Source: Turritopsis dohrnii (taxonomy: Eukaryota > Cnidaria > Hydrozoa > Anthoathecata > Oceaniidae). From it: a DNA stretch of 64,000 nucleotides. The notes below the pieces were generated by a model. That model was not told the origin of the DNA, did not search any database, and was given only the letters and a program-made list of their open reading frames with translations. The stretch is from NCBI GenBank assembly GCA_027922465.2, contig BQMF02000260.1, positions 1 to 64,000 of the forward strand, written 5' to 3'. This document shows positions 31,072 through 59,913 of the stretch, piece by piece (the first letter of the stretch is position 1; every line of letters starts with the position of its first letter). A program made the translations under genes and the position numbers.

Positions 31072-31278
31072 AGTAGTAGGTGAGGGTCAATATAGGCCCA
31101 CTTTTCGATATTCATAATTTTATCGAGAATTTACTATATTTTTTAACGGTGGAAATAAGGGGGATTATTAACGTGAAACGCGTTAATAAGTGTTATCGTG
31201 AATGAATTTCAATTAGTATAGAGGTTTGGTGTGTATCCCATCATCAGCTACGATTCTTTTGTCATAATAAGCGCTGAG
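31072..31278 (+). repeat. Polinton left TIR
   Basis: 207 bp, starting AGTAGTAGG. Its inner part overlaps the 3' end of polB (from 31213). It contains an internal palindrome-like AACGTGAAACGCGTTAATAA and the run ATTCATAATTTTATCGAGAA, both shared with the right TIR. Confidence 0.9.
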
Positions 31279-34200: not shown

Positions 34201-35220
34201 AAACACCAATTTCCAAACCTGTTGGTTTTTCGGCTCATATAGACGGATGTTGACATTAAACTGTTTGGCAATACCTTCAAAATCAACAAGTTTTGTAGCT
34301 CGTACATCCTTAACTTTTAGGTTCTGATCATCATAAAAATCTCGAGCTAGTTCTAACGCTTTGCTAGTAGTGCGTTTAGCAGGTCTTTGTTTGTTTTTAG
34401 CATACCCAAAGTAGATAGCAAGACATCTCCATACACACAGATTGTCGTTTTTATCATCTATCGCATGGATACATCTTTTCTCACGAAGCCAATCAGGCAG
34501 AGGACCACAACCCATGAGCGGTTCATTGCTGTGTATGACTTTTATGATAATTCGAGTAAACTCAACCCGCCCCTGATAGACACCCGGACTATCGAAAACC
34601 TCGGCTGCTGGTAGATACGCCTTAGACCAAACACCATCATCGTCCAAATCTAACCTTCGACTCTCACATCGTTTGATATACTCCTCGATTGCGGATAAAC
34701 TTGTATAAGTACCTTCTCCAGGAAGCGTCTTTTCATACTTTACAAGTTCCCCATTTCCCCGATAAATTTTAGCGGTAAAACTGTAAACAATCCTCGAACG
34801 CATTTCGATATCTTCTCTGATTCGATTGAAAATTATATTTGATAGTTCTGAATTCAAATTACCGGTAACCTCATACCTGTTCATTCTTGGATGGGTTTCA
34901 ATCAAGTTGATTTGTGGTCGTTGATCTAATTCTCGAACAACATCATCATCCTCATCTCTCTCTTTTCTAACCTTTTTATACAGATTGAGAACCTTATCTT
35001 TCAAAGTTTTGAAAGCTTTACTAGTTTTCTCCTTAATAGGTTTAGGTACATGATTTACCAACCAATCTCTCCATTCATCCAACTTACTTTTCACAACAGG
35101 TCTATTTTTCGACATTTCTCGCTGTTCAAAGATATCCATATCTTGTTGGGTAGGAATAAATGGAACAGGTCTTGGTGGTGGAACAGGTCGGATAGGTGGG
35201 TTTGCTAATAATTCGATCAA
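31213..35220 (-). CDS. polB: Protein-primed family B DNA polymerase (PolB) with N-terminal accessory domains
   Basis: Replicates the element by protein priming. Residues counted from 35220. An N-terminal region has an OTU-like motif DNLCVWRCLA (about 260), a C2H2 zinc finger (HWECAGCEQRF..., about 375) and a nuclease-like YYGCKWHGCPC segment (about 480). Then come 3'-5' exonuclease FDFET (about 550) and GFNSGKYD, and polymerase motifs DANSLYL (about 920), KLKGNSFYGK (about 1095) and MDTDSMYM (about 1190). Codon 35220 is TTG. The frame is open upstream to 35358 with no ATG and encodes a SAP/HeH-like segment (VVELKALARERGLHGYSKLR), so the true start is upstream, non-AUG or mutated. The C-terminal 22 codons lie in the TIR. 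Confidence 0.93.
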   Translation of the reverse strand: MIELLANPPIRPVPPPRPVPFIPTQQDMDIFEQREMSKNRPVVKSKLDEWRDWLVNHVPKPIKEKTSKAFKTLKDKVLNLYKKVRKERDEDDDVVRELDQRPQINLIETHPRMNRYEVTGNLNSELSNIIFNRIREDIEMRSRIVYSFTAKIYRGNGELVKYEKTLPGEGTYTSLSAIEEYIKRCESRRLDLDDDGVWSKAYLPAAEVFDSPGVYQGRVEFTRIIIKVIHSNEPLMGCGPLPDWLREKRCIHAIDDKNDNLCVWRCLAIYFGYAKNKQRPAKRTTSKALELARDFYDDQNLKVKDVRATKLVDFEGIAKQFNVNIRLYEPKNQQVWKLVFGKNQFRKSLPCVDIGLYEGHFFYIKDLEGLTKHWECAGCEQRFNRHGHYNRHVTENLCSGGKTKLICKGEKFKHIMNSSEKVFYGGNTQFSYAGCRWIEKQSEITGRHIHHALCGHGGERCVKINKREILVDGYEPESNTVYQYYGCKWHGCPCINGDPKKYRATLDMETKIRSLGYDVVSVWACEIPELSTVELEKKFVPYPYFIVFDFETILHKLDQQVTSDLTFDTKHIAVSVAITDNFTNKPTFLVNSDPEKLIKDFILDLEKRWEGVSKCVSEKYYLPDKDSLPSSVVMRHEAWCNQVPVLGFNSGKYDLNMIKKHFVNHMTEQAGSISVAKKENSYMFLTTGQFKFLDVKSYLAPGLSFDGWCKANNCEEQKLVFPYEWLDSFEKLSHIGTVKYEDFYSSLKKKILITTQEYEDFKVEFEKRGCVTMLDWLKEYNLADVVPFVEALEKTREYYYGDEIDMLKDAVSIPGISMTYVLNKALKMKKKGEPDLYAPGQPCTCKCSKECYKQGCKDCSKIRKDCEACPKNKAYELLKTGMVGGPSIVFSRYAERGVSKIRPHKYKDARDCESVVGFDANSLYLFCSGQEMPCGKESYIEVENPTDPEYLKEFSEGVCDGSIFGFCQVDIHVPEGLKAKFEEFSPLFVVDKIPERLVPQHMKDYQTATNRMSIKGTKKLLGVCKAKKILLYTPLLKWYIDHGLKVTGVYKILKYTASRPFKWFPKEVTDARRDGDSNPALKQLGDTHKLKGNSFYGKMIEDLEKHTNNAYTKSEENVDKAFRSPFFDDLEVINETFEIKERKRQVNINRPYQCGIAVYQFAKLRMLEFYYDFLDKYIDRRDFELIQMDTDSMYMALSSKSLDDIVKPELKDYYFNQGKAEFLSTSKYHDRTPGLFKAEFNGTRMIALTSKCYFAENQDLGKSKFSCKGISKRQNEMSWQRYKEALDGSKDMAQNTGFRVSNHKIVTYTQKKLGLSAYYDKRIVADDGIHTKPLY

Positions 35221-35409
35221 CTCAGCTTTTCTGAGTTTTGAGTAGCCATGTAAACCGCGTTCTCTAGCGAGAGCTTTTAATTCAACAACAGTTTTTCTAG
35301 TAGTTGTAATATATATATCACGATTATATCTTTTTAAATCACTTTTTAAAATTTTCGATTATCATTTTCCAATTTTTCATCCAAAAGATTCGTAACCTTT
35401 GTGTTCTAT

Positions 35410-35438
35410 TTTTGTTACTCGTTGATTAAGTAACAAAA
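35410..35438. terminator. Hairpin, 10-bp stem, 9-nt loop, 3' of the SAP gene
   Basis: TTTTGTTACT (35410-35419) pairs with AGTAACAAAA (35429-35438) around a 9-nt loop. It lies 16 nt beyond the stop of the SAP ORF (minus strand). It shares the GTTAC-N9-GTAAC core with 42138-42162 and 44314-44338. Likely a transcript-end signal (inference). Confidence 0.6.
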
Positions 35439-35453
35439 GCGAGGTCAATTTAT

Positions 35454-35735
35454 TTATTTTTTGTAAACTCTCTTCTCTCTCTTAGCGTTATAACGTTTTT
35501 GAGAGCTGAGATATTTTTCTCTGTTATTTTTTATCCAGTTTAAACAGTATTTATTAACCGTTTGTTTCGTATCAGGATCGAGAATATAAGATGGATCCTC
35601 ATCATTTTTCTCAAGCACCTCGAGTAATTTAGCTTTGTTCATTAGGTTAGCATATTTTATTTTTCGTGACGCACATAATTTTCGTAAAGCGTCACGAGTC
35701 ATTGACTTGTAATCTGATTCTGTTTTGTCGGTCAT
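35454..35735 (-). CDS. Small SAP-domain DNA-binding protein
   Basis: 93 aa, ATG at 35735. Residues about 8-42 form a SAP-like helix-extension-helix (YKSMTRDALRKLCASRKIKY ... KAKLLEVLEKND). The tail is very basic (RYNAKREKRVYKK). Small SAP proteins recur in Polinton-like elements and large DNA viruses, where they probably bind DNA. It sits directly upstream of polB in the same orientation, which carries a second SAP-like segment in its ATG-less extension. It is divergent from integrase across a palindromic spacer. Confidence 0.7.
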   Translation of the reverse strand: MTDKTESDYKSMTRDALRKLCASRKIKYANLMNKAKLLEVLEKNDEDPSYILDPDTKQTVNKYCLNWIKNNREKYLSSQKRYNAKREKRVYKK

Positions 35736-35742
35736 GTTTATG

Positions 35743-35836
35743 TTTATTATCTTTATATAAAGATAATAAACAACGTTTAAGTCACTTTTCTCGTGTCATT
35801 TTTGTTAAAAAAAAATGAGCTAAATAAACGTTGTTT
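35743..35836. promoter_or_regulatory. Palindromic divergent promoter between SAP gene and integrase
   Basis: 35743-35770 is a perfect 28-nt palindrome centred on TTTATATAAA. AAACAACGTTTA (35768-35779) is repeated inverted as TAAACGTTGTTT (35825-35836), just before the integrase ATG. A symmetric TATA-rich spacer between divergent genes suggests a bidirectional promoter. Confidence 0.55.
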
Positions 35837-35846
35837 ATAAATAAAA

Positions 35847-36830
35847 ATGTCAGACACTAAACTTCAAGAGATTTATTATCAACCTCAAAACTTGTGGAAA
35901 GGACAAAAGGCTGTTTGCAATCTAAGAGGATTCGGCTTCAAACTGAAGGTAATTAAGAAATGGCTATCAAAACAAGCTTTGTGGCAAGTACATTTACCCG
36001 CACCGAAACACGTTGAACGTTCACATTATGAAGTGACTAAACCGAATGAGATTCACCAATTTGATATATTGTACATGCCTAGTGATATGCTGTATGGTAA
36101 TAAATACAAGTACATCTTATCCGGTATCGATGTTGCTTCACGTTACAAGGTGGCGCGACCTTTGAAGACTAAGAAAGCCAAAGAGGTTGCCGATATGATA
36201 AGAGATATCTATAGAGTTGGACCCTTAAACTATCCAAAAGTATTTCAATGTGATAACGGTTCAGAATTCAAAGCGGATGTGACAAAATTGTTGGGGAAGA
36301 ATAACGTCGAAATTAAAAGAGTAACTACTAAATATAAGCATACCCATACAGCGTTTGTCGAGGCGTTGAACAAGATACTTGCCGAAAATTTATTCAAAAT
36401 ACAAGATGCTCAAGAACTGAACGATTCGGAAAAGGTATCATCTACGTGGGTCAAATATTTGTATAAACTTGTGGATAGATTAAACGATACGAAGACTCGG
36501 ATGATCGATATGAAACCGAAAGATGCTATTAAAATGAAAGAGGTACTTCTCGCTAAACGAGAGAGCTATCCACCCGAAGAAAAATTACCTCAAGATGGTT
36601 TGTATAGATATCTATTGCAACCGGGTGAAGAGCACGATGACCATCGAAAAAGAGCAACAGATAGGATATGGTCAAAGAAGACTTATAGATTGAGTGAGGT
36701 GATAGATCAACCAGGTAACCGTGTAATGTATTACCTTCAAGATGGACCTGAACGAGCTTTTGTAAAAGAAGAGTTGATGTTGATACCTGAAGATACAGAA
36801 TTACCTCCTGATTATGTGCAAGGTTGGTGA
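35847..36830 (+). CDS. int: Polinton integrase, retroviral DD35E type
   Basis: 327 aa, ATG at 35847. Catalytic triad D73 (HQFDILYMP), D136 (FQCDNGSEF) and E172 (AFVEALNKILAE), with 35 residues between D136 and E172: a DD35E rve core. The N-terminal region is short and lacks a clear HHCC zinc finger in this reading. The C-terminal part (RIWSKKTYRLSEVI ... RAFVKEELMLIP) looks like the SH3/chromo-like DNA-binding tail seen in Polinton integrases. It inserts the linear element into the genome. Intact. Confidence 0.93.
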   Translation: MSDTKLQEIYYQPQNLWKGQKAVCNLRGFGFKLKVIKKWLSKQALWQVHLPAPKHVERSHYEVTKPNEIHQFDILYMPSDMLYGNKYKYILSGIDVASRYKVARPLKTKKAKEVADMIRDIYRVGPLNYPKVFQCDNGSEFKADVTKLLGKNNVEIKRVTTKYKHTHTAFVEALNKILAENLFKIQDAQELNDSEKVSSTWVKYLYKLVDRLNDTKTRMIDMKPKDAIKMKEVLLAKRESYPPEEKLPQDGLYRYLLQPGEEHDDHRKRATDRIWSKKTYRLSEVIDQPGNRVMYYLQDGPERAFVKEELMLIPEDTELPPDYVQGW

Positions 36831-36853
36831 ATCATACATCTCATACAAAAAGT

Positions 36854-36878
36854 ATCTTTACTTGTTTCTAGTAAAGAT
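36854..36878. terminator. Hairpin 3' of integrase
   Basis: ATCTTTACT (36854-36862) pairs with AGTAAAGAT (36870-36878), loop 7 nt, 23 nt after the integrase stop. A further small hairpin AGACC-TTTC-GGTCT at 36958-36971 lies just 3' of the convergent 72-aa gene. Confidence 0.5.
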
Positions 36879-36984
36879 GAGTCGACGAGATTTTATCTAA
36901 CGCCATATAATGTCATAATCAAAGAATTGTCTTTCTGGATTCTTTTGAGATTGTTTGAGACCTTTCGGTCTGACAAAGGCCTCT

Positions 36985-37203
36985 CTAGAGATGCCAACCA
37001 TAATCATTTAATTCAATGGAAAGTCTTTCAGGCAACCACACCTTATATAAATTTCCCGTTCCGTCTTGCACTTCTGCATACATAGCCTTTGTAGAAACAA
37101 ATTTAACATGATAAATCACGTTTTCAGGTAGATCCCTCCACTTTATGATCGATGTAGATTGTTCGATTATTTGTTCAAATGTTTCAACTGTTGGAAATTC
37201 CAT
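36985..37203 (-). CDS. Small conserved-looking 72-aa protein, function unknown
   Basis: ATG at 37203, stop at 36985. Beta-rich pattern SIIKWRDLPENVIYHVKFV ... YAEVQDGTGNLYKVWLPERL. This W..L..N..Y.V....T......DG.G....VWLP spacing recalls small proteins that recur in other invertebrate virus-like elements, possibly OB-fold-like (weak inference). Convergent with integrase. Confidence 0.5.
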   Translation of the reverse strand: MEFPTVETFEQIIEQSTSIIKWRDLPENVIYHVKFVSTKAMYAEVQDGTGNLYKVWLPERLSIELNDYGWHL

Positions 37204-37425
37204 TGTCTATATACTTGTTTCATATCTTTTTATATCAGTTTTTTTGTGTGTACGTGGTAAGTTTCTATTACATAACAAATAACAACACATAACAGTTTCT
37301 ATTATATAACCACAAATTACTCATAATTGTAAACAATTAAATATCTCATAAAAATGTAGTAAAAAGCAGTTTGTAGTAGTTTCATTTTTATAACATAAAT
37401 GAGCTAACAATACATATAACATACA

Positions 37426-37499
37426 GATCAGCGTAGTCTAGTGGATAAGAACGCTAACTTGTAACAACAAGGTCGTGTGTTCGAACCCCACGCAGTTCG
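37426..37499 (+). repeat. tRNA-like sequence (SINE head or tRNA relic) inside the Polinton
   Basis: 74 bp with a good A-box (TAGTCTAGTGG) and B-box-like GTGTTCGAACCCC at tRNA spacing. Five of seven acceptor pairs form (GATCAGC against GCAGTTC), the T-stem has four of five pairs, but the anticodon stem does not pair. This fits a tRNA-derived SINE head or decayed tRNA better than a functional tRNA. No A-rich tail or target duplication was confirmed downstream. Confidence 0.5.
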
Positions 37500-38402
37500 T
37501 CTGAGAGGAAGTATATATACTTCGGCGGTTGTAGATCTCTCATGTTCTGGTTGTAAAACTTGCATGAGTGCGCACTTCCCCGCAGTTGTGTTGAATATAT
37601 CGCGGAATGGTTAGCATTGCGTCTGGGTGATTTATCACTGTCAGGTTTCTCTGGTCCATAGAGACATTCAGGTTACCGTCATTTCGATCGAAATTCAACA
37701 AACGCCAGGGCTTAGAAGTGTTAGCATGTATCCACAATGCCGGCTATAATTGCAAACTACATACGCTGATCAGCGAAATAGTACATACCATATACTAAAC
37801 ATCATAGTAATCGCTAAACCAAAGAACTTTTTTTTTTTTTTTTTTTTGTTTGTGTTGGAGAGCTAGTCACTTTGAGTGAAATATGATACGCTTGCATAAC
37901 ATTAATCATTTTGTTATGTAAACAAAATAAAAAACAAAATTATAGCGTTCCGAGGGACACCACAAGCAGACACTGAGGTCTAAATGAATGATATAAAACC
38001 CAAGAGCGGAATAATTTGAAAATTGTGGTGAACAGGCGACAGAGTCTGCCGGAAAGGGAAGGTCTAGTGGAGCGGCTAGATTGGAACTGGATGGTGCCGT
38101 CCGCTCCCGGTATTCACCACAAAATGTGCCAAAAGTTGTCGGGAAAAAAACAATGTGACTAGATGTAATATACTCGAACAGATCATGAACGGCCATTGCG
38201 TGCGTAGTAGTCGGAGTTCGTAAGTAGTCACACACAAATAGTCTAAGATCTAGGGGTAGAGCTCAGAGCTGGTGGATTGGAGAAGCCAGGGTGGAGTGCC
38301 GGTTAGATCGAAGACAATGAATTAAAAACCCTCTAGGGTATCACAACAACAACAACAACAACAACAAAAACCCTAGGGGGTTCTCCTAAGGGAGTTTTGT
38401 TT
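37500..38402. other. Non-coding insert with a duplicated gene end
   Basis: No credible gene. Segment 37788-37919 is a diverged direct copy of parts of 38418-38608 (the 3' end of the 385-aa gene), with about 85 bp replaced by a poly(T) run (37830-37849). Between the copies lie about 480 bp of unrelated sequence, a (CAA)n tract at 38342-38367 and a CCCTAGGGGGTTCTCC patch. This is where a protease or other gene could have been lost. Confidence 0.6.
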
Positions 38403-39560
38403 TCAATAATAATAATAATACCATATACTAAACATCGTGGTAATCGCTAAAACCAAAGCTATTTTCTCTTCTTCATGAGATGGGGGTGAATCTGTTTGAC
38501 TCACTACTCTTTTATGAACTTCCTTTTGTGAACTTTTATTTTTTGTTGGAGAGCTAGTCACTTTGGGTGAAATATGATGCTCTTGCATAACATTAATCAT
38601 TTTGTTTCTTCCGAGGCTCAAGTTGTCATTAGATATGAGAATTTTATTATTATAACCAGACACTCCCGACTTGATGTTTAGATTCATGTCACTAGGTAAC
38701 ATGTAAATACCTTGTCCAACAGAATAATCAACTTTGCTTGAAGCGTAATTTAAAGTATCTTGATAACGTTTAATGTCATCTTGAATATCAACTCTGCGAT
38801 TAACAATGTCTTCAAAGTTGTTCATAAAAACTCTTTGAGCTGTCAAAGAGCTTGAATTATTACCTAAAATAGAAGAACGAGCAGAGGCTTGGGAACTAAG
38901 AATAAGATAAGCATATGCTCTAACACTCTCTGAAATTTTTACAAGACCTGTTTTTGTAAAGCCTTTAGATTTTTCTATAATCCATCGTGTCATGGAGTCG
39001 TCTGTGAAATAACTCACACCTGGCGTTGGATAGTCTCTACGTCTTTTTTGATACGAGCTGTAAAAATATTGCCCTTTGTATTTTTTAGGATCAGAATCGA
39101 CACCATATTCACTACAGATTTTTAAAAACTCTTCTTTGTTATAAGGATTATCATATTGGTTGAAACTATCTTCAAAAGGTAGAGGTGTCTGCAGACGCTT
39201 AATGATTCGTCTAATATGATAATAGACGTGAAAACGATATACTGCTCTAATCATAGGAGTAGAGCGACCTTCTTTCAGATGTTCAGAACTGACTCCACAA
39301 GCGCTTGAAGCACACCAAGTGACAAAATTGAGTTGGGTTTGCCATAATTTAAACGGTTGTTCCTGCCAAATTTTCATACGTTGATCATTCTCTTCCATTT
39401 CGTAATTAGTAAATATATTTGGAAAAGTTGCGGGGAAAGAACCGCTCTCAGAGACAATAATTGTTTGTTTGTATAAATCTTTAGCATTCAATATCTGAAG
39501 GTATTGTCCTCCATTTGGCTTATAAAGCGCATTGGGAACATATTTAAAAATATCCTCCAT
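38403..39560 (-). CDS. Conserved Polinton 385-aa protein, probable virion/assembly protein
   Basis: ATG at 39560. The N-terminal half contains a recognisable block LWQTQLNFVTWCASSACGVS followed by YRFHVYYHIRRI and PLPFEDSFNQYDNPYN, which I recall from other animal Polintons. The C-terminus is Ser/Thr/Lys-rich and ends in a hydrophobic segment (IALVLAITTMFSIWYYYYY), possibly a tail anchor. The last codons are encoded by an (AAT)n microsatellite at 38404-38420. Divergent from the minor capsid gene with 39 bp between starts. Role not established. Confidence 0.7.
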   Translation of the reverse strand: MEDIFKYVPNALYKPNGGQYLQILNAKDLYKQTIIVSESGSFPATFPNIFTNYEMEENDQRMKIWQEQPFKLWQTQLNFVTWCASSACGVSSEHLKEGRSTPMIRAVYRFHVYYHIRRIIKRLQTPLPFEDSFNQYDNPYNKEEFLKICSEYGVDSDPKKYKGQYFYSSYQKRRRDYPTPGVSYFTDDSMTRWIIEKSKGFTKTGLVKISESVRAYAYLILSSQASARSSILGNNSSSLTAQRVFMNNFEDIVNRRVDIQDDIKRYQDTLNYASSKVDYSVGQGIYMLPSDMNLNIKSGVSGYNNKILISNDNLSLGRNKMINVMQEHHISPKVTSSPTKNKSSQKEVHKRVVSQTDSPPSHEEEKIALVLAITTMFSIWYYYYY

Positions 39561-39599
39561 TATTATTTAATATTATTATCTTATATTTAATACAAGAAA

Positions 39600-40160
39600 A
39601 TGTATATCACAGCAAATCTCGTAAGGGGTGAGAAGACCATAAATCTACCTTACCCCATTCAAAACTTGGATGGCTCAAAAGAAATTGCATTGGTTGATAT
39701 GTTTGCAGACAATGTTACGTATGAAATAACCACAGACCTAACACTGACTATGCTTGGTTATAGGAAAGCTAAAAAGTTGGTACCTCAAGGAACATTCACG
39801 AGCAGGGAATTGAATGCCTTTTTAGCAGGTACCTTTTTAGCAGGTGATGTAGAACTTACCTCATTAGGCAAAAACCCTCAAGTAATCAAAACAAATAAGC
39901 TCGCTAACGTAACCAAAATTAATTTGCATCTCTCTGAACTTGACAACACTCAAAATCTTGAGAATGGAAAGCTAAGTGATATTTTACTAACCTATCACAT
40001 GGCTGAACATAGCGACTTCACACATGTTGAGCCTAAAAACCCTCAGTACAAAAAATTAAAAAATGGTGTATTTCAGTCTCTCACGTTGAAACTCACAGAT
40101 CAGCATGGCAATATGCTAAAAGAAGACCTGGGAAGAACCATTGTTTTGCACATCCGCTAA
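39600..40160 (+). CDS. Polinton minor capsid (penton-like) protein
   Basis: 186 aa, ATG at 39600. All-beta pattern without membrane segments. The C-terminal stretch PQYKKLKNGVFQSLTLKL ... DLGRTIVLHIR matches the penton-type single jelly-roll protein that sits beside the major capsid gene in Polintons. It would form the capsid vertices. Position immediately upstream of the capsid gene in the same orientation supports the call. Confidence 0.75.
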   Translation: MYITANLVRGEKTINLPYPIQNLDGSKEIALVDMFADNVTYEITTDLTLTMLGYRKAKKLVPQGTFTSRELNAFLAGTFLAGDVELTSLGKNPQVIKTNKLANVTKINLHLSELDNTQNLENGKLSDILLTYHMAEHSDFTHVEPKNPQYKKLKNGVFQSLTLKLTDQHGNMLKEDLGRTIVLHIR

Positions 40161-40203
40161 ACCGAGATAAAAAGTAATAATTAATTATATATCATAATTA
40201 ATA
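40161..40203. promoter_or_regulatory. AT-rich palindrome between capsid genes
   Basis: ATTAATTAT and its complement ATAATTAAT flank a 5-nt centre just upstream of the major capsid ATG. Could be a late promoter or the minor-capsid transcript end. Confidence 0.35.
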
Positions 40204-41514
40204 ATGGAGTATGGAAAGAGGTTAAATCCAGAACGTTCACTTAGAACTGCCCGCGGTGTAAAAGGCTCTCGTCAAAAAGTAATTGTCACACACAATCCGA
40301 GTGAGATCGATCAAAATCAGTTATTATTGGTTAGGTTTCCAAATTTAGGAAGCGATGATGTTATTATTCCAGGAACAGCTAATCTAAGTTTTGATATTGA
40401 ACTCGAGTCGAGAGCTGACACGAAAAGAACATTGGTCAGTAACATTGGGAGAGCTATCGTTAAAAAGTTGGCTGTCAAGTTCGAAGGTAGCGAGATATTG
40501 AGCATCGATGACTTTGATCTTTTTGGGTGTTACAGAGATTTATGGTTAACCAAGTTTGAAAAGAGAAACGCGATAAGACAGGGTATCATCATCGATGATG
40601 GGTGTACAGAAAATTGTATGAAATTGAGGATTGGTGCTTCCGATAAACCCACCACCCCTATTGAAGCGGACAAAGCCATTGCTGACACCTATAAAAACAA
40701 GTTTGTCATTCCACTCGACTTTGAGATGCTAGATAGTACTATTCCATATTATCAAGCGGGTTTAGGGAATAGGCTTTGCTACGAGATCACATTTAACGAC
40801 TATAACCGAGTTATCTATTCTGACCCTCCAACTTCTGCCGCAAAAAACCCAGATGCTAAATACAAAATATCTAACATCTCTCTTGAATATGAGCTTGTGA
40901 CACAACCCAAGTTGGCTAGACAAATCGCTTCTGAATATCAAAACATGGCTTTGCTCTATGATAGGATTTTGCGGCACAGACAAATTAGAGTAAACAAGTC
41001 AGACACAACGTGGAATTGGTCATTCAACACACCTGCCAAATCTTTGAAGGGTATCTTAGTTCTGTTTGAAGAAGAAGAATCCTACAAACGAGATACCGGT
41101 AAATTCTACAATCCAAAGATCAAAAAAGTATCTGTCATCGTTGAGGGTAAGCCTAACCAACTTTTTGCTCAAGGGATGCAGCCGTTTGAACAATACAATG
41201 AGATTTGCAAGTATTTTGCTGAAGGAAAACCAAAAGATAATAGCGTCGGCGAAAACCGAAAGCGCTTGGGATTACATGATGTAAAAGTCTCTGATTACTT
41301 GACAAACAAGTATGCTCTATGGTTAGATTTCAGAACAATTGATGAGAATGCCTTGCATGGGACCGGTCGAAAGATTGAAAATGCGAGTGAAGGTATCACT
41401 TTACAGATTGAAAAGACCGCTGAAACTGCAGGAAACTTAAACGCATATATATATCTAATAATGGACGCTCAATTAAATATTCAAAACGGAGAATTTATGT
41501 CTGCATTATATTAG
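40204..41514 (+). CDS. Polinton major capsid protein (double jelly-roll type)
   Basis: 436 aa, ATG at 40204. Landmarks: IDQNQLLLVRFPNLGSDDVI near the N-terminus, IVKKLAVKFEGSEI, FVIPLDFEMLDSTIPYYQAG, and the C-terminal TNKYALWLDFRTIDENALHG ... LQIEKTAETAGNLNAYIYLI. Two beta-rich halves fit the double jelly-roll fold of Polinton and adenovirus-like capsids. It lies between minor capsid and ATPase, the usual neighbourhood. Frame intact. Confidence 0.85.
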   Translation: MEYGKRLNPERSLRTARGVKGSRQKVIVTHNPSEIDQNQLLLVRFPNLGSDDVIIPGTANLSFDIELESRADTKRTLVSNIGRAIVKKLAVKFEGSEILSIDDFDLFGCYRDLWLTKFEKRNAIRQGIIIDDGCTENCMKLRIGASDKPTTPIEADKAIADTYKNKFVIPLDFEMLDSTIPYYQAGLGNRLCYEITFNDYNRVIYSDPPTSAAKNPDAKYKISNISLEYELVTQPKLARQIASEYQNMALLYDRILRHRQIRVNKSDTTWNWSFNTPAKSLKGILVLFEEEESYKRDTGKFYNPKIKKVSVIVEGKPNQLFAQGMQPFEQYNEICKYFAEGKPKDNSVGENRKRLGLHDVKVSDYLTNKYALWLDFRTIDENALHGTGRKIENASEGITLQIEKTAETAGNLNAYIYLIMDAQLNIQNGEFMSALY

Positions 41515-41518
41515 TAAA

Positions 41519-42124
41519 ATGAACATACTTTACATGAAAGAACCTCACACAGCATTATTCGTTGGACCAACATCGTGCGGCAAAACGGATCGTGTTGTAA
41601 AATTATTAGAAAATGAATATCTCAATCACTTTGATTACATCGTGATTATATGTCCAACTTTGAGGTGGAATCAAACATACAGAGATCGGAAGTGGTTTTG
41701 GACTGACAACTATGTGATTTTAATTGAACCGTAAGGTCGCTTGTATGAATGGATTAAGGAAATGACCACTAATTGTGCTGGATATAAAACCTTATTCCTC
41801 ATTGACGACATAATCGCTGATGAGGAATTGGACAAAAAGAGACAGCCTTTGCTCGAGTTGGCAATTAGTGGTCGCCATCGAAACCATTCGCTATGGTTAC
41901 TTACACAATCATACACGGCTATACCTAAAAATTTACGACGGCAAGCTAAAATGTTATATGTGTGGTATCCAAAAGATAGAAACGATCTAGCCGCCATTCA
42001 TGAAGAGAACGATGTCATTGATTCGCGAGAAGAATTGAAAAATGTCAAGGAAAAACTGAAAGGAGGGAAACACACATGCCTAGTCATGAGAATGGAACAC
42101 CCAAGAACGCACGTGATTTGTTAA
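41519..42124 (+). pseudogene. FtsK/A32-type genome-packaging ATPase with one in-frame stop
   Basis: ATG at 41519, four bases after the capsid stop. Walker A is GPTSCGKT (codons 14-21), followed by YIVIICPTL. A TAA at 41732-41734 interrupts the frame after 71 codons. The same frame then stays open from 41735 to 42124 with Walker B LFLIDDI, the sensor-like LLTQSYTAIPKNLRRQ and C-terminal KGGKHTCLVMRMEHP. So one substitution breaks an otherwise complete gene of about 201 codons. The family pumps the genome into the capsid. Sequence error or stop readthrough cannot be excluded. Confidence 0.88.
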
Positions 42125-42137
42125 ACAGGTTGATATA

Positions 42138-42162
42138 TTTGTTACATGACTCTTGTAACAAA
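42138..42162. terminator. Hairpin between convergent ATPase and PPP1R15-like genes
   Basis: TTTGTTAC (42138-42145) pairs with GTAACAAA (42155-42162), loop 9 nt. Same GTTAC-N9-GTAAC design as at 35410 and 44314. It sits between two convergent stops (42124 and 42173), so it can serve both transcripts. A direct repeat TATAAGACTACTGTAAG follows at 42168 and 42190. Confidence 0.6.
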
Positions 42163-42172
42163 AACTATAAGA

Positions 42173-42421
42173 CTACTGTAAGTCTCCTATAAGACTACTG
42201 TAAGAGAATAATTTACGTCTCAATACAGGATCTAGAATTTTACCAATATGTTTAATCCTCGATTCAAAGCGTACTCTGTCAACAGCAGCCTCTATCCAGT
42301 TACTTCTACGAGATTCACAAGCAGAGATATAATGGACCATTACTATATCATTAAAAGTAACCCTTTTTGTATCTTGATGGGAAAATATAATATCATCATC
42401 TGAGGATTCATCATCGAACAT
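42173..42421 (-). CDS. PPP1R15/GADD34-like eIF2alpha-phosphatase adaptor (82 aa)
   Basis: ATG at 42421, stop at 42173. An acidic N-terminus (DDESSDDD) is followed by KRVTF at residues 19-23, an RVxF protein-phosphatase-1 docking motif. Then come VMVHY (27-31), W42, DRVRFESRI (48-56) and LDPVLRR (63-69). That order and spacing is the conserved core of PPP1R15 proteins (GADD34/CReP; Pfam PP1c_bdg): PP1 docking, then the helix that recruits eIF2alpha. Viral proteins of this type (herpesvirus ICP34.5, African swine fever virus DP71L) reverse PKR-driven translation arrest. Here it would do so for a virus-like transposon (inference). It is divergent from the 214-aa gene across the 44-bp repeats and convergent with the ATPase. 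Cellular capture or chance similarity are alternatives; the match is motif-based, not computed. Confidence 0.72.
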   Translation of the reverse strand: MFDDESSDDDIIFSHQDTKRVTFNDIVMVHYISACESRRSNWIEAAVDRVRFESRIKHIGKILDPVLRRKLFSYSSLIGDLQ

Positions 42422-42499
42422 AATTGTTTAAGTAAACAATGTGTATTTATTTAACAATGTTAGAATATATCAACTTTATATTATTAAACATCATCATCC

Positions 42500-42680
42500 T
42501 CTTATAATTATTTAAGACAAAATAATTATAAGAGGATAGCAAACTCTTATACAGCAAATTTCAACAAAATTATAAGAAGATAGCAAACTCTTATACAGCA
42601 AATTTCAACAAAATTATAAGAGGATAGCAAACTCTTATACAGCAAATTTCAACAAAATTATAAGAGAGTATAAGAAAATT
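42500..42680. promoter_or_regulatory. 44-bp tandem repeats and palindrome in a divergent promoter
   Basis: Three tandem 44-bp units start at 42526, 42570 and 42614, with a partial fourth at 42658. Each contains TATAAGA...TCTTATA, able to form a hairpin. The first is also half of a longer inverted repeat ATCCTCTTATAATTAT / ATAATTATAAGAGGAT at 42506-42537. Located between the divergent PPP1R15-like and 214-aa genes. Confidence 0.7.
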
Positions 42681-42697
42681 ATAACAAACACAACAAA

Positions 42698-43342
42698 ATG
42701 ATAGAATATGTCAACTTTATATTATTAAGCATACTGCTGATCTCGCTATTTTACTTTTATTTTGTGTTAAAAAAATACCTCTCTCTAATAAAAATGGCGG
42801 AAACAGCGATCGATAATTTAATCAACCAGAGTTATGATGTTCCGGGTGAATTTCCACCTTCAGATGGTAAAAGACAAAAACTGCTAGAGTGTGTCTTAAC
42901 TGGAAATAGCAAGCTATACTTAGGGAAAATGTACACGGAAGAGCAAATTAACAAACTCAAAGATGGAGATGTAGAAAAACTTTTTAGTATCTATGAAGCT
43001 AAACTATCAGGTCAAATGGTAAAATCCTTGGGGAAATCACTGATACATATTTATTCCATGGGGGCTTGTACAACATTAGGAATAAACAATCAAGATGCGT
43101 TGAGCAATGACCTGGAAACTGACCCCTTCTTAAACTCTGCTCTTCAAAGATTTACATGTGACTTATATTACAAGTTCGGCTCATTATTAGCACCACTCAG
43201 TGTTGGACTTATTACCGGGAGGCATTATATCAATGAAAGGAATTTAAATAAATCCGATGATAATATAAATACAGTAGATAATAAAAATGTCAGAAGAACA
43301 GACTCCCATTCAAGTGACAACGAAGAACCCAAAAAAGGTTGA
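42698..43342 (+). CDS. Conserved Polinton protein, 214 aa, with N-terminal membrane segment
   Basis: ATG at 42698 gives an N-terminal hydrophobic helix (FILLSILLISLFYFYFVL); an internal ATG at 42794 would start the soluble part. The core KLFSIYEAKLSGQMVKSLG ... ADxEADPF-like LSNDLETDPFLNSALQRFT ... FGSLLAPLSVGLITGRHY resembles a protein present in many animal Polintons. It could be a virion component. Its 3' end overlaps the start of the 55-aa ORF (43287) in another frame. Function unknown. Confidence 0.7.
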   Translation: MIEYVNFILLSILLISLFYFYFVLKKYLSLIKMAETAIDNLINQSYDVPGEFPPSDGKRQKLLECVLTGNSKLYLGKMYTEEQINKLKDGDVEKLFSIYEAKLSGQMVKSLGKSLIHIYSMGACTTLGINNQDALSNDLETDPFLNSALQRFTCDLYYKFGSLLAPLSVGLITGRHYINERNLNKSDDNINTVDNKNVRRTDSHSSDNEEPKKG

Positions 43343-43454
43343 AGCGGGTAAGAAGTTGGCGGAATACAACCGTAAAAAACGAGAACAATTAAAACAAGTG
43401 TCACCTCAAAAAGAAATGGAGACTCTCTCACCAAACCAAATGAACAACCCATGA
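43287..43454 (+). CDS. Small basic Polinton protein (55 aa)
   Basis: ATG at 43287, TGA at 43452-43454. The core KNPKKVEAGKKLAEYNRKKR is very basic, and I recall similar small proteins at this place in other Polintons. It overlaps the end of the 214-aa gene and the start of the next by 4 nt (ATGA), an operon-like packing that suggests a shared transcript. Confidence 0.6.
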   Translation: MSEEQTPIQVTTKNPKKVEAGKKLAEYNRKKREQLKQVSPQKEMETLSPNQMNNP

Positions 43455-43621
43455 ACTACATCTATAGTGTAGGTGGAATAATAGCTCTCGGTTTAGTTGG
43501 TGGATTTGCTTATTTTGTGTATAAAAAGAAAGAGCAAATATTACCCCATGGGTCACCATCCACCCCCATTCCACAAAAATCTAAAATACCAGTGAAAATC
43601 AATAAACATGAAATGGAATAA
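43451..43621 (+). CDS. Small single-pass membrane protein (56 aa)
   Basis: ATG at 43451 overlaps the previous stop (ATGA). An N-terminal transmembrane helix (VGGIIALGLVGGFAYFVY) is followed by lysines and a Pro/Lys/Ser-rich tail. Likely a virion membrane-active or scaffold peptide by position; no firm homologue recognised. Confidence 0.5.
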   Translation: MNYIYSVGGIIALGLVGGFAYFVYKKKEQILPHGSPSTPIPQKSKIPVKINKHEME

Positions 43622-43648
43622 AAAGAAAAAAATGTATATATAACAAAC

Positions 43649-43871
43649 ATGGACAAGAAAAGTATCATCAACGATTTATATCACGCATCAGTCATATCTC
43701 GCTACCGGCTACTCTATGCTTGTAAAAAAGGTGTTAAAAATGACACCTCCCTCTATTCAAAAGTTCGACTTGGAAGATACGGTAAAACTAGTTGTCATTA
43801 TCGCCATTAGTGAAGTGACAAAGGACTACTTAATCAAACAAAAGATTTTGCCTGAAAATATCAATATCTAA
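43649..43871 (+). CDS. Two overlapping small ORFs, possibly one frameshifted gene
   Basis: ORF a (43649-43810, 53 aa) starts MDKKSIINDLYHASVIS. ORF b (43716-43871, 51 aa) starts at an internal ATG and carries a hydrophobic, conserved-looking block KFDLEDTVKLVVIIAISEV ... QKILP. ORF a reads sensibly up to about 43720 and ORF b after it. The switch lies near an A6 run (43723-43728), so a one-base indel or a programmed shift could join them. I cannot tell which product is real. Confidence 0.5.
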
Positions 43872-43873
43872 AT

Positions 43874-44296
43874 ATGGCTTCTATCGCAATGATGTTGGGT
43901 GGAGCTTTGGCTAACGCTTTGGCTTTCACAGGATCAAGCTATCTGTTTTCAAGTTTATCTAAAGACAGAATCGATAGGGAAAGAAAACGTCATGATTTGG
44001 CCATAGAAAAATTACAAAAAGCACAAATAGAATGGCAGCAAAAACGACAGGAAAGGATTGATTTTATCAATAAACAACTATTGCTCGAAAAGAAGGCTGA
44101 TTCAAAATTCGTAGAGCTAAATGATGCAATGAGAGAGTACAATAGGGTGTTTAGTAATCATCTTGAACCGCTACCACGAGAGCCTGTATTGAGCGACTTT
44201 TATACACCGAGTCATGATCAACATGAAAGAGAATTGGCTTTTATAGCTCTAAGTATGCTCGGAATTGGTGGAATTGTGTGGTATTTTGAAAGATGA
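43874..44296 (+). CDS. Conserved Polinton coiled-coil protein (140 aa)
   Basis: ATG at 43874, two bases after the previous stop. A Gly/Ala-rich hydrophobic start (MLGGALANALAFTGSSYLFS) is followed by a coiled coil (RKRHDLAIEKLQKAQIEWQQ ... ERIDFINKQLL), a Pro-rich turn and a C-terminal hydrophobic segment (LSMLGIGGIVWYF). The pattern recurs in animal Polintons beside the capsid block. Probably a minor virion protein; function unknown. Confidence 0.65.
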   Translation: MASIAMMLGGALANALAFTGSSYLFSSLSKDRIDRERKRHDLAIEKLQKAQIEWQQKRQERIDFINKQLLLEKKADSKFVELNDAMREYNRVFSNHLEPLPREPVLSDFYTPSHDQHERELAFIALSMLGIGGIVWYFER

Positions 44297-44313
44297 AGAC
44301 CATCAACAAAAAT

Positions 44314-44338
44314 TATGTTACACGATACATGTAACATA
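44314..44338. terminator. Hairpin between convergent 140-aa and 428-aa genes
   Basis: TATGTTAC (44314-44321) pairs with GTAACATA (44331-44338), loop 9 nt, between stops at 44296 (+) and 44354 (-). Third instance of the GTTAC-N9-GTAAC design. Confidence 0.6.
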
Positions 44339-44353
44339 TACACTTTCAGATGG

Positions 44354-45640
44354 TTACCGTCTAGTGACAAGGTACGTATAGATCAACCCCCCAACCCCTA
44401 CAATCAGAGCCCATAAATTTTGACTTAACCAACCTACAACTTCTTTTGCTCTAGTGAGTATCCATGATACGATAGACCCAATTATTCCTGGTAAAGCCTC
44501 TGCCGCTCTAGATGCTAATCTACCTAGAAGTGATGCTAACGCTTTGAGTTTATTTTTTATCCATTCCTTTGCATCGTCCTTTTTATCACCACCTTTGTCA
44601 GGATTTTGTGAAGAGTTTCCAGCTGCTGATGGTAACAAAGCTTCCACAATAACACCGATAGCCATACCAAACGCTGTCAGAATGCTAACGATTGTTATAC
44701 CTTGTTCACGGAATAGTGTTCGTATCCTTTCACCCAATGTGGTATCTTTGTCGAGGACTTTAGCAATGGTTTCTTTGATGCTCGTAACTTGACTGTTTAA
44801 TTTACCTTTGAGAACATTAATATTCTCTTTCCTAGCTTTCAACTCTTCACGTAATCCCTCCATTCTCTCTTCAACCTCTTTTCGTTGTTCATCTGTGTAT
44901 GTTGCATCATTTTCCATTTCTTCCAACTTGTTTTTCTCCTTATCGATATGCTGTTCTATTCGAACCTTTTTTGCAACCTCTTCCTGAAGACCTCCTCTTA
45001 TGTTTCTCAGCGCCTTATCCAATCCTAACAGCTCGCGCACAGGATATTCAAATAGATCACCGGTCTGAGTTGTTTCATGATCGACAGATTGTTGTCTTAT
45101 TAATGAAATTAAATCTTCCGTACTATTTGCAATGTTCCCCGTAATTTCCTCAAGCTCTACATCACTCGATTTTGTGATTTTAGATGATGAAGGGAGTTCT
45201 TCTTGTATTTTATTTAACATAACTGCTTGTCGTGCTGTTATTTTGCCAATAGGTATATCAAACCCTAATTTACGTAACCCCTCCTTACCCAATATATCAG
45301 CTATAGTACCGGTAGCCCTTAGTCTTCCATTGTTTGTCAATGGTTTGCTACTGTCTTTGTAGTATAATTTACCTTCTCTGATTTCAAATAGATCGGTATG
45401 TTTGGAATTAGGTTTTTCCTGATTGAGACTTTCAGATAATCTATCATACAGCCCTTCAACTAGTTCTTTCAAAACTCTAGTATTCAGACTGTGACCTCCA
45501 AATGATGTTTCTCGGTCACCTGATGTATGTATCTGTACATGAGTTCGGTCACCGGTTTGTATGAGAGGAAACGTTTCATCGGTTGTTTCATCTGTCGTCA
45601 TCCCATGTTCTCCAAAGGGGTCAATGTCAATGTCTGCCAT
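44354..45640 (-). CDS. Large membrane-associated Polinton protein (428 aa)
   Basis: ATG at 45640. An acidic Thr-rich start is followed by a region with RLRATGTIADILGKEGLRKL, then a long coiled coil (about 215-290: EEVAKKVRIEQHIDKEKNKL ...), then LGERIRTLFREQGITIVSIL and a hydrophobic helix (TAFGMAIGVIVEALL), a Lys/Asp linker, and amphipathic plus transmembrane helices at the C-terminus (LWALIVGVGGLIYTYLVTRR). I recognise the C-terminal half from many cnidarian Polinton predictions. Possibly membrane-lytic during entry or assembly (inference). Confidence 0.75.
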   Translation of the reverse strand: MADIDIDPFGEHGMTTDETTDETFPLIQTGDRTHVQIHTSGDRETSFGGHSLNTRVLKELVEGLYDRLSESLNQEKPNSKHTDLFEIREGKLYYKDSSKPLTNNGRLRATGTIADILGKEGLRKLGFDIPIGKITARQAVMLNKIQEELPSSSKITKSSDVELEEITGNIANSTEDLISLIRQQSVDHETTQTGDLFEYPVRELLGLDKALRNIRGGLQEEVAKKVRIEQHIDKEKNKLEEMENDATYTDEQRKEVEERMEGLREELKARKENINVLKGKLNSQVTSIKETIAKVLDKDTTLGERIRTLFREQGITIVSILTAFGMAIGVIVEALLPSAAGNSSQNPDKGGDKKDDAKEWIKNKLKALASLLGRLASRAAEALPGIIGSIVSWILTRAKEVVGWLSQNLWALIVGVGGLIYTYLVTRR

Positions 45641-45647
45641 TTTATTT

Positions 45648-45695
45648 ATTTAGAGGATAATTTATTATTAATTATGTTATAACAACCCTCTAAAT
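45648..45695. promoter_or_regulatory. Inverted repeat in the divergent 428-aa/197-aa promoter
   Basis: ATTTAGAGG (45648-45656) and CCTCTAAAT (45687-45695) bracket an AT-rich spacer between two divergent starts (45640 and 45696). Symmetric layout as at 35743-35836. Confidence 0.5.
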
Positions 45696-46289
45696 ATGAA
45701 TGTTAAAATTTATCCAAAACTACCAACTGCTCCTGAGGATTTGAATGAGCAGGAAAAGTTTAACGCAAGCGTAATAAATTCAGAATTTGAAGAGTTGATA
45801 AAACTGAAGAACAAGTTTAGCATCAAGCTCAAGAGATACAACAAGGCGATAGAACGATCGATGCTACTAAATGCTAGCTCAAGCGCTATAGCCATTGGCT
45901 CTAGCATCGGTTCAATTGCAACAGGGGCTACTATTATTGGAATGCCTATTTCTGCAGGATTAGGTGGTGTAGCCCTAGCCGGCACTATCTGTACCGGACT
46001 TACCACAGTTGTCATCAAAAGATATCAAAAGAAAGTAGAAAAAGTGATAAAATTATATGATATTGTTACATCCTCAATCGCTGTGTTCGAAACTAACATA
46101 AGTCAGGCGCTGACTGATGGAAGGATCAATTACAAAGAATTCCAGGTTTTGCAGGGAACATATTACAAAGCTTTAGAAGGACTCAGTTCTACAGATAGAA
46201 AGATGGAGACTGAAACCCAAAATCAATTTCAAAAAAGTTTGATGGTAGAACTTCAAAACCTGAAAAAATCCATAAACGAAAATGGTTAG
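45696..46289 (+). CDS. Polinton membrane protein with Gly/Ala-rich hydrophobic core (197 aa)
   Basis: ATG at 45696. A helical N-terminal region, then a hydrophobic Gly/Ala/Ile core (about 62-108: SAIAIGSSIGSIATGATIIG ... GGVALAGTICTGLTTVVI), then two helical segments. It resembles pore-forming or membrane-active small proteins in composition, but no specific family was recognised. Last gene before the right TIR, whose edge is 20 nt beyond the stop. Confidence 0.6.
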   Translation: MNVKIYPKLPTAPEDLNEQEKFNASVINSEFEELIKLKNKFSIKLKRYNKAIERSMLLNASSSAIAIGSSIGSIATGATIIGMPISAGLGGVALAGTICTGLTTVVIKRYQKKVEKVIKLYDIVTSSIAVFETNISQALTDGRINYKEFQVLQGTYYKALEGLSSTDRKMETETQNQFQKSLMVELQNLKKSINENG

Positions 46290-46308
46290 TAGGATGTGCT
46301 TGTGTGTG

Positions 46309-46524
46309 CTCAGCGCTTATTATGACAAACGAATCGTAGCCGATGATGGGATACACACCAAACCTCTATACTAATCGAAATTTCATGATAACACTTATTA
46401 ACGTGAAACGCGTTAATAATGTCATGGGGAAATCCCCCCTTATTTTCACCGTTAAAAATATAGTAAATTCTCGATAAAATTATGAACATCGAGGGTGTGG
46501 GTGAAATTACTCTCGCCTACTACT
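46309..46524 (-). repeat. Polinton right TIR, carrying a copy of the polB 3' end
   Basis: 216 bp, inverted relative to 31072-31278. On the plus strand 46312-46373 encodes SAYYDKRIVADDGIHTKPLY and a stop, the same as the PolB C-terminus, because the TIR extends into the gene. The arms differ by scattered substitutions and a few indels (for example GTGGAAATAAGGGGG against GTGAAAATAAGGGGG). Confidence 0.9.
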
Positions 46525-46738: not shown

Positions 46739-48122
46739 CTTTATTTAAAAGAAAAATTAAATATCTCCCTGATTTGAAGGTAGCAATCAATTTGTCATTA
46801 TACGATATTTCTGGAGTTGAAGTTGATGATGAAGAAGAAAGAGAAGACGAGGATAACAACGGGGATAACATTTTCCAAGTATATCAATTAATTATATTTC
46901 TTTATTCACTTGAAATATAGGACATTAGTTAGATAGTAAAAAATAGCAAAAATAAATTTCTACATAGCTAACTGATGATCTTGAAGATGGCAATGAAGAT
47001 AGTCTGAAAAGTAACATTGCAGTGAGAAGCACATGTAAATGCAAAGGCAAATGTCTGAAGCAATGTCCTTGTCGGGGTAATGGTATTCCTTGCCTTCACA
47101 AACAATGTTATTGCTCCAGAGCAAAATGTGAAAACAAAACCAATGTTCAATTGAACAAGGTAAACTTGAATAAATGATTTTGGTCAAGACTAGGGGAAAA
47201 ATTTATCCTATGAATGAACTGTTTATAATTTATGCTTTAGTTTACCAAACCCACAAAGAAACGTATTCAACCTTCCGATCTTTGTGAATTACAAAAAGAG
47301 CGCATAAATAATGCTAAAGCTGAGTGTGAGGTATCAAATTCTATGTACATGAAAAAATTTGAAACAAAATTATCTTGTAAAGAAACTATATACACATCTT
47401 TTTTTACAACAAACATGCATATGAGAGGCTCAAATTCTTAAAAACTTTTAAGAACCTTTTAAGAACCTTGTAACAAGACATGATTTGACATCCTGTAAAG
47501 CCCTATATGAGATAAAAAGGCAAAATCTGCTTGTGCTGAACTTCGCTAATTATGTCAAACTATTATATTTAACCTGGCAAAACATGTTTCTTACAAAGAA
47601 AGATGTATATATATACACAATATCAATTCCACATTAGGAACATTGCAAGGATATGGGTCATCAAGACCTTATCAACCTGATATCACGCATGACCGTTCTG
47701 TCACCTAGTACTTGGGAACAAGCTAAAAGACCACCACCAGATGTTACCAATGTCCCAAGTAATTTACCATGGTGTCAGTGTGGAAAGTGCAAACTCATGC
47801 CTACGGAAAATGAAAACATTTGCTGTAAGAATGCAGAAAGGAATCATGAGCACAGAGACTTCGAACACATCATATTGAATGATAGGACATTGGAAGTGGC
47901 CATGAGAGCCAATTCTGATTGGTCGCATTATCCCTTTGACGCAACAAAAAATGAATGTTGGAGATACACAGCATATCGACAATACATAATGTGGGTGTGG
48001 GGTCATCTTGGGAAAGCAACAGGAAGATAATACCCTCTTGCATTGTTAATATAATTAGGGATAGATACCCAGATCTGGTTAGTAATTACACAGGCTTTTT
48101 AGATACTGGATACAATTATTAA
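46739..48122 (+). pseudogene. CXC-domain / P2X7-ballast-like gene, 5'-truncated and frameshifted
   Basis: Exons by splice site and phase: 46739-46878 (...SLYDISGVEVDDEEERED), 46968-47159 (Cys-rich CXC-like domain CKCKGKCLKQCPCRGNG ... CLHKQCYC), 47241-47330, and 47638-48122. The last has WCQCGKCKLMPTENENICC and ECWRYTAYRQYIMWVWGHLG, the zinc-binding ballast-like domain known from the P2X7 C-terminus and from many invertebrate stand-alone proteins. After HLGK the frame runs into a stop at 48028, but the expected tail (IPSCIVNIIRDRYPDL ... NYTGF) continues in another frame to 48122, so one indel lies near 48015. No start codon or upstream exon is visible before the Polinton end at 46524. Confidence 0.7.
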
Positions 48123-58854: not shown

Positions 58855-58964
58855 TGTGACGTTTCCATGTATTTCCGGATGACTTCAACGACCGCACGAT
58901 CTTTTGGAAAACGTAGTTGCACCAGGAAAAGTAACAATAATGCTGCCACTCCATCTTAATATTT

Positions 58965-59913
58965 GTTTCACCAAGGAGGTTGAGCATAATAATTGTTTGC
59001 CTTTCTTGGATATTTTGGTTAGTCGTGAGAGTGGTAGTTTTTGTACCAATGTCTACCGTAAACCCACATTTAGTGGTGTTTATAGCCATTTTGATAGTTT
59101 TATTCCCGAATATTTTAAGCACGGACTAATTTTTTCACTTTTGTACCGTTGTTATCGTTTATGTTCGGATTATGATAGGTTTCATCAAGAAGTTAGTTAC
59201 CTCAGAATCATATTATGTAAAAACAAATATCCTAGGAATGTCATAGATTTTTGTATCAAAGTTTTTCTCAACAAGATACGTCTTCCTAACAAAGAAGCTA
59301 TTCCCACGGTTGCTAAGAGAGAATTGTTTATTATGTTACCGTTTCTTGGCAGTCTCTCTTTGCAGGTTCGAACTCGTTTGTCTCGTATTTTCCGTAGCAA
59401 TTTACCTCACTGCTCGGTTCGATTTGTTTTCCGCTCTACTTGTAGACTCAGGAATTTTTTTCAGTTTAAGGATCGCATTCCCAAGCTACTACGCTCTGGC
59501 CTTGTTTATCAGTTTAAGTGCGGTGGCTGCAACGCCACCTATTACGGCAAAACTATCCGCCATTTTAAGGTCAGAATGTGTGAACACTTAGGTATATTGC
59601 ATCTCACTGAGAAACCCGTGAGCGGTCTATACTATCCTTCTGCGGTTCGGGGCCATAGATTTGTTTGTGATTATACTCCATCGTTTTGTAATTTTACTAG
59701 CATAGGTAGTGATAGTAATGACTTTAAATTAACTCTGAAGGAGAGCTTACTCATCAACCGAGACAAACCTTCTCTTAACAGAACTATTACTTCACTTTAC
59801 TAATTTTTCTATTGTTAATGTTTTATAAATTAGGAACTTTTATGAAAAAACTTGTACGTGATCATGGTGTGCGGAAGCCACCGAAAATTTGTAGCAATAA
59901 AATTGGATTTGTC
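58965..59913 (+). mobile_element. 5'-truncated Penelope-like copy, inverted
   Basis: 949 bp, near-identical to the reverse complement of 55469-56417 (also 949 bp). It encodes the RT C-terminus and the GIY-YIG domain to the stop at about 59803, with a few substitutions (for example LGILHL for LGISHL, YYPS for YHPS). No RT active site. Head-to-head with the longer copy. Confidence 0.88.

Follow-up and report, generated by a model that had tools for sequence, protein, structure and literature searches.

Some animal viruses are known to carry their own version of the switch with which the cell restarts protein synthesis after stress. Viral orthologues of GADD34 listed in a section of PMC10807198 are gamma34.5, DP71L and protein 7 of TGEV. 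For DP71L, passages of PMC5346070 indicate that V16 and F18 of the docking motif and the two leucines of its LSAVL segment matter, and quote the eIF2alpha-binding motif of Rojas et al., Rx[Gnl]x1-2Wxxx[Arlv]x[Dn][Rg]xRFxx[Rlvk][Ivc], in which capital letters denote preferred residues. The PPP1R15A (GADD34) residues at the actin and eIF2alpha interfaces are named in part of PMC8500838. Among Polintons, an adenovirus-like cysteine protease is present in 74%, according to a portion of PMC4028283.

The window examined here, a stretch of 64,000 nucleotides, appears from its sequence to hold a PPP1R15-type core in a new type of carrier, a Polinton-like element, of which we have one copy. The core is encoded by an 82-aa ORF that probably represents a captured, stripped-down PPP1R15-type targeting subunit of PP1, an accessory gene of a Polinton/adintovirus-like element that would recruit PP1 to dephosphorylate eIF2alpha. 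The basis for this reading is sequence homology, conserved contact residues, an intact reading frame and the position of the ORF in the element. The ORF lies between a packaging ATPase and a 214-aa gene, inside a 15,453-bp element (31072-46524) bounded by terminal inverted repeats (TIRs), with the following features.

31072-31278: left terminal inverted repeat, which begins AGTAGTAGG
31213-35139, minus strand: 1308-aa ORF, read as a protein-primed DNA polymerase B from motifs by eye
35847-36830, plus strand: RVE integrase (Pfam rve, E 1.8e-10)
39600-40160, plus strand: 186-aa ORF, a penton candidate from its position alone (cf. part of PMC4028283)
40204-41514, plus strand: major capsid protein candidate, with 3248 database relatives and a low-confidence model
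41519-42124, plus strand: packaging ATPase with one in-frame stop near 41732, its two pieces scanned apart
42173-42421, minus strand: 82-aa PPP1R15/GADD34-core-like ORF, ATG to TAG, supported by Pfam, PDB and PPP1R15B alignment
42456-42491, plus strand: beginning of the 214-aa gene in a second, diverged copy (92% across 36 nt), adjoining the ORF
42524-42666: tandem repeat with a 44-bp unit, 3.2 copies, lying in the shared upstream region
42698-43342, plus strand: 214-aa gene, divergent neighbour of the ORF
46309-46524: right terminal inverted repeat

The two TIRs are identical at 182 positions in 222 alignment columns. A 6-bp target-site duplication is a hallmark of Polintons; here the bases adjoining the two TIR ends differ. 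We take the 1308-aa ORF to be a putative protein-primed polymerase B on the strength of motifs seen by eye. It matched no polymerase family at the thresholds used, whether in Pfam, PHROGs or NCBIfam, which is unexpected for a Polinton polymerase. The capsid candidate, considered as the double jelly-roll major capsid protein expected of a Polinton, has no Pfam match and was modelled with low confidence (pLDDT 41.8). Its ten viral fold matches at E ≤0.001 comprise five named capsid proteins, one asfarvirus B646L (which we take to be the p72 capsid gene), three unnamed proteins and one uncharacterised; the best of them are mostly capsid proteins of large DNA viruses, with TM-scores of about 0.2. 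The downstream piece of the ATPase (41762-42124) matched Pox_A32 (E 1.6e-5) and the terminase family phrog_2666 (E 9.6e-11). The in-frame stop in the ATPase means that the present copy has decayed at least in part; the capsid-candidate, integrase and polymerase-like frames are open, unlike that of the ATPase. No Pfam protease match was found among the ORFs scanned, other small or broken frames lying outside that scan. The earlier note on this DNA had called the element a capsid-encoding Polinton, a description that the TIRs, integrase and ATPase uphold, the capsid gene standing as a candidate and the polymerase as a reading from motifs only.

Several other observations were made along the window. 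Between the integrase and a 385-aa gene (37428-38403) the frames are fragmented and look, by eye, like inserted other repeats. The right end of the element has two unassigned genes, for a 428-aa protein (44354-45640, minus strand) with the look of a coiled coil and a hydrophobic C-terminal part, also by eye, and for a 197-aa protein (45696-46289, plus strand) matching DUF4461 (PF14688) at E 1.5e-5, with 25.4 bits narrowly over the cut-off of 24. Just beyond the element, 47653-48030 (plus strand) matches the P2X7 intracellular domain (PF20478, E 1.6e-12). Further along, two ORFs in opposite orientation (55579-56826, minus strand, and 58940-59803, plus strand) are near-identical by eye over their common part, the former with a match to RVT_1 (E 4.7e-7). 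Next to the 82-aa ORF, two copies of the beginning of the 214-aa gene stand 241 bp apart (42456-42732), with the 44-bp tandem repeats between; the duplicated gene start and the repeats are signs of local rearrangement.

The 82-aa frame runs from ATG to TAG at the coordinates first proposed for it, and on the minus strand; a plus-strand reading of the same interval is interrupted by same-frame stops. All the segments that the earlier note had listed are there, in the order it gave: the acidic start, KRVTF (residues 19-23), VMVHY (27-31), Trp42, DRVRFESRI (48-56) and LDPVLRR (63-69). The main ones map as follows, all on the minus strand.

42392-42421, minus strand: acidic N-terminus, residues 1-10, six of the ten being Asp or Glu
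42353-42367, minus strand: KRVTF, residues 19-23, an RVxF-type PP1-docking motif that aligns with KKVTF of PPP1R15B
42254-42298, minus strand: WIEAAVDRVRFESRI, residues 42-56, the invariant Trp and the predicted actin- and eIF2alpha-facing helix (contacts from part of PMC8500838)
42215-42235, minus strand: LDPVLRR, residues 63-69, counterpart by alignment of the second helix (R612 of PPP1R15A; LSAVL of DP71L)

When the 573-bp spacer was shuffled 2000 times with its dinucleotides preserved, an ATG-initiated ORF of at least 82 aa arose in 8 cases. By codon usage the coding frame is the best of the six; its score ranks among the lowest 12% of 293 true-frame windows and is reached by 0.5% of 1465 wrong-frame windows from the element's other genes. 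Since 7.6% of 472 host-background windows also reach it, codon usage alone is weak evidence. A/T-rich, TATA-like strings, weak as such signals go, precede the ATG by 33 and 59 nt, and neither AATAAA nor ATTAAA is found within 300 nt past the stop. The AlphaFold model of the ORF product had a pLDDT of 55.5, too low for use.

Search of the ORF product against the Pfam profile PF10488 (PP1c_bdg), which the earlier note had proposed as a check, gave a match above the cut-off, with 29.1 bits against a gathering score of 26.1 and an E-value of 1e-6 for one protein, or about 1e-4 once corrected for the window's 95 ATG-ORFs of at least 60 aa. The match spans residues 13-59 of the ORF and positions 164-210 of the 230 in the profile. 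None of nine controls (eight shuffles and the reversal of the ORF protein) matched PF10488, one unrelated family appearing in one shuffled control at E 0.048. Phmmer searches of the PDB returned five matches at E up to 10, headed by human PPP1R15B (E 2.8e-5, 27.3 bits, residues 14-58) and followed by DP71L (E 1.3e-4, 25.1 bits, residues 16-70), the sole viral match; PPP1R15A is absent from the five. Without gaps, 19 of 46 residues (41%) are identical to human PPP1R15B, and the best gapless identity to this 46-residue core in 20,000 shuffles was 13. The motif W...[ARLV].[DN][RG].RF..[RLVK][IVC] occurs once in the six frames of the window and in none of 200,000 protein shuffles.

How close the relationship is depends on the length of the query. 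Human PPP1R15B, as a 46-residue query, scored 24.5 bits against PPP1R15A, below the 27.3 bits of the ORF against PPP1R15B, and a 68-residue PPP1R15A query scored 37.1 bits against PPP1R15B and 32.4 against DP71L. The ORF thus appears to lie within the range of the family by the short core and to be more distant than PPP1R15A, PPP1R15B and DP71L are mutually by the longer one; the description "as close as the human paralogues are" holds with the short query only, fails with the longer, and was dropped. A phage or prokaryotic family for the ORF was also set aside, there being no match in PHROG, NCBIfam or phage records, a collection that may omit the window's own genome or near kin. As Pfam, the PDB and the identity to PPP1R15B agree, the PPP1R15/GADD34-type core first suggested by eye is borne out, and the family assignment, a matter of sequence comparison, is well-founded.

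Contact residues were compared on the PPP1R15A letters of PDB entries 7nzm and 7nxv. Five of the seven listed actin and eIF2alpha contacts are kept in the ORF, namely D588 (D48), R591 (R51), F592 (F52), R595 (R55) and R612 (R68), and the hinge residue Trp582 is kept as W42. All three of the actin-facing residues, F592, R595 and R612, are retained, the pairing of R68 with R612 involving a four-residue gap placed by hand in the shorter linker. The eIF2alpha-facing residues are kept at two of four positions (D48 and R51), with R587 replaced by V47 and R594 by S54. KRVTF and Trp42 stand at the spacing of PPP1R15B with no gap, and the counterparts of DP71L V16/F18 and of the LSAVL leucines are, in the PDB alignment, V21/F23 and L63/L67. 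The part of the Rojas motif from W to I is found in the ORF, and a Ser at the [Gnl] position makes the full string fail; because the capitals stand for preferred residues, we count this as one departure and not as loss of the core. The further claim, of a minimal eIF2alpha-adaptor core, stands as regards the PF10488 match, the order of the segments and five of the seven contacts, and is weakened by the replacement of two of the four eIF2alpha-facing residues and by the one position at which the Rojas motif is departed from.

Relatives of the ORF itself were not found at E ≤1 among about 5.8 billion proteins, where one candidate shared words with it; the same database yielded 3248 relatives of the capsid candidate. 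The search for the same ORF in other Polintons, suggested at the outset, thus came back empty, though thousands of capsid relatives were available. Either the gene belongs to a narrow lineage, or it has diverged beyond the reach of a word-based search, or it is a one-off insertion, and a single copy is the basis of the claim of selected Polinton cargo. A query joining the ORF with the PPP1R15B core gave 11 matches among 14 candidates, all PPP1R15B-like: ten anonymous ORFs of 70-116 aa, which from their sequences we read as probable vertebrate exons, and one PDB chain, none recognisably viral. In IMG/VR, a collection that may omit records of the window's own genome or near kin, there was no confirmed relative of the ORF, the capsid candidate, the polymerase-like ORF, the integrase or alignments A1 and A2; because the element's other genes are absent there too, the absence of the ORF says little. 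Searching IMG/VR for the Trp helix with a degenerate DNA pattern gave one locus, by our reading in a phage head-type gene, which was dismissed as a chance match.

In the literature, no paper was found on a Polinton with GADD34 or eIF2alpha, most subscription journals lying outside the search, in keeping with the earlier note's remark that this was not known as described Polinton cargo. Among the matches listed, no title or opening of an abstract joins Polintons with PP1 or eIF2alpha, and the main text of a preprint on animal-virus gene transfer, which includes adintoviruses, contains none of the terms GADD34, phosphatase, eIF2, ICP34.5 or PKR.

Three other accounts of the ORF have to be weighed against that of a captured adaptor. 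One is that a piece of host PPP1R15 landed recently in a single, decayed Polinton copy, where it has no function and is no gene of the element; this seems unlikely to us. Such an origin would suit an ORF with no relatives found beside a capsid candidate with thousands, a neighbouring ATPase that carries a stop codon, and the rearranged surroundings with their duplicated gene start and 44-bp repeats; against it, the ORF has an unbroken frame between an ATG and a stop codon of its own, and its codon score is higher than that of 99.5% of wrong-frame windows, although windows from the host background attain it in 7.6% of cases. In seven of the ten anonymous PPP1R15B-like matches a Gln precedes VTF and the leads before it are unlike one another, which we read as an intron end, and the ORF passes that point without an intron. 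A fresh, unconstrained copy would also sit poorly with contact residues kept at 41% identity to PPP1R15B, the comparison being with the human protein and not with the host's own PPP1R15.

The segments of the PPP1R15 core are all kept in order, the Trp hinge and second helix among them, and this argues against a product that recruits PP1, perhaps with actin, to some other substrate such as an immune kinase, an account that we find very unlikely even though two of the four eIF2alpha-contacting residues of PPP1R15A are replaced. Gamma34.5 does also direct PP1 to IKKbeta, according to a section of PMC10807198; DP71L, however, likewise has Val at the R587 position, and is reported in passages of PMC5346070 to drive eIF2alpha dephosphorylation. 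It is scarcely credible that the resemblance arose by chance in a low-GC spacer. The match is short and motif-driven, 8 of 2000 shuffled spacers held an ORF of equal length and no relative of the ORF was found, but the PF10488 and PDB matches, the identity to PPP1R15B and the shuffle and scrambled controls all speak against it; a chance ORF or an artefact of composition was rejected on the shuffles, the motif count and the scrambled controls.

If the ORF is indeed a captured PPP1R15-type adaptor, KRVTF and the strand that follows would dock on PP1c and Trp42 would position the hinge. The WIEAAVDRVRFESRI helix would then bind G-actin through F52 and R55 and present R51 and D48 to eIF2alpha, with R68 of the LDPVLRR helix as a second actin contact. 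Phosphate would be removed from Ser51 of eIF2alpha, and translation of the element's proteins could go on even if the host switches on an eIF2alpha kinase while the element replicates. Expression, binding to PP1, actin and eIF2alpha, catalysis and benefit to the element are what we infer. PKR is a vertebrate kinase, and the eIF2alpha kinases outside vertebrates would be GCN2, PERK and HRI. PKR as the target, as the earlier note had it, is not supported; the kinase countered would depend on the host, and PKR should not be assumed.

More broadly, Polintons might carry their own eIF2alpha-phosphatase adaptors, as asfarviruses and herpesviruses do, with a capsid-encoding transposon in an animal genome actively countering the integrated stress response and the adaptor forming one old viral lineage. 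We regard this as decidedly unlikely. If Polintons do carry such adaptors, an old viral lineage would be suggested over a fresh host capture by what the ORF and DP71L have in common, the AAVDR-x-RF string and a short linker between the helices, and its odds are lowered because DP71L scores higher against PPP1R15A (32.4 bits) than against the ORF (25.1). We judge it an open issue whether Polintons act as viruses in conflict with host defences or merely as transposons that have capsid genes, and a translation-control antagonist in a Polinton would, if true, be direct evidence of conflict with the host stress response. It would also extend PPP1R15 mimicry beyond herpes simplex virus, African swine fever virus and TGEV, the cases given in part of PMC10807198. 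The idea can be tested with one small protein.

Set beside known systems, the element resembles Polintons/Mavericks (polintoviruses, adintoviruses), as described in portions of PMC4028283, in its size within their 15-20 kb, its TIRs, RVE integrase, FtsK-type ATPase and capsid candidate, and differs from them in having no recognised cysteine protease gene among the ORFs scanned and in carrying a PPP1R15-like ORF. ICP34.5 (gamma34.5) of herpes simplex virus is a viral PPP1R15 mimic according to passages of PMC5346070 and PMC10807198; it is described with an RARA motif, which by eye the ORF lacks, and the likeness is one of published description.

The cellular animal proteins PPP1R15B/CReP and PPP1R15A/GADD34 share with the ORF the RVxF segment, the next strand, the invariant Trp, a helix with the counterparts of D588, R591, F592 and R595, and the Leu and Arg of the second helix. 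They have a long N-terminal part that is missing in the ORF, which is only 82 aa long, has an inter-helix linker four residues shorter and replaces R587 and R594. DP71L of African swine fever virus belongs to a different virus class, is closer to human PPP1R15A (32.4 bits) than to the ORF (25.1 bits), and has LSAVL where the ORF has LDPVL, the ORF in turn having VTF and YIS as in PPP1R15B. It is likewise minimal and of similar length (71 aa), and its residues 11-64 align with residues 16-70 of the ORF with one 1-residue gap, the AAVDR-x-RF string and the short linker between helices being common to both.
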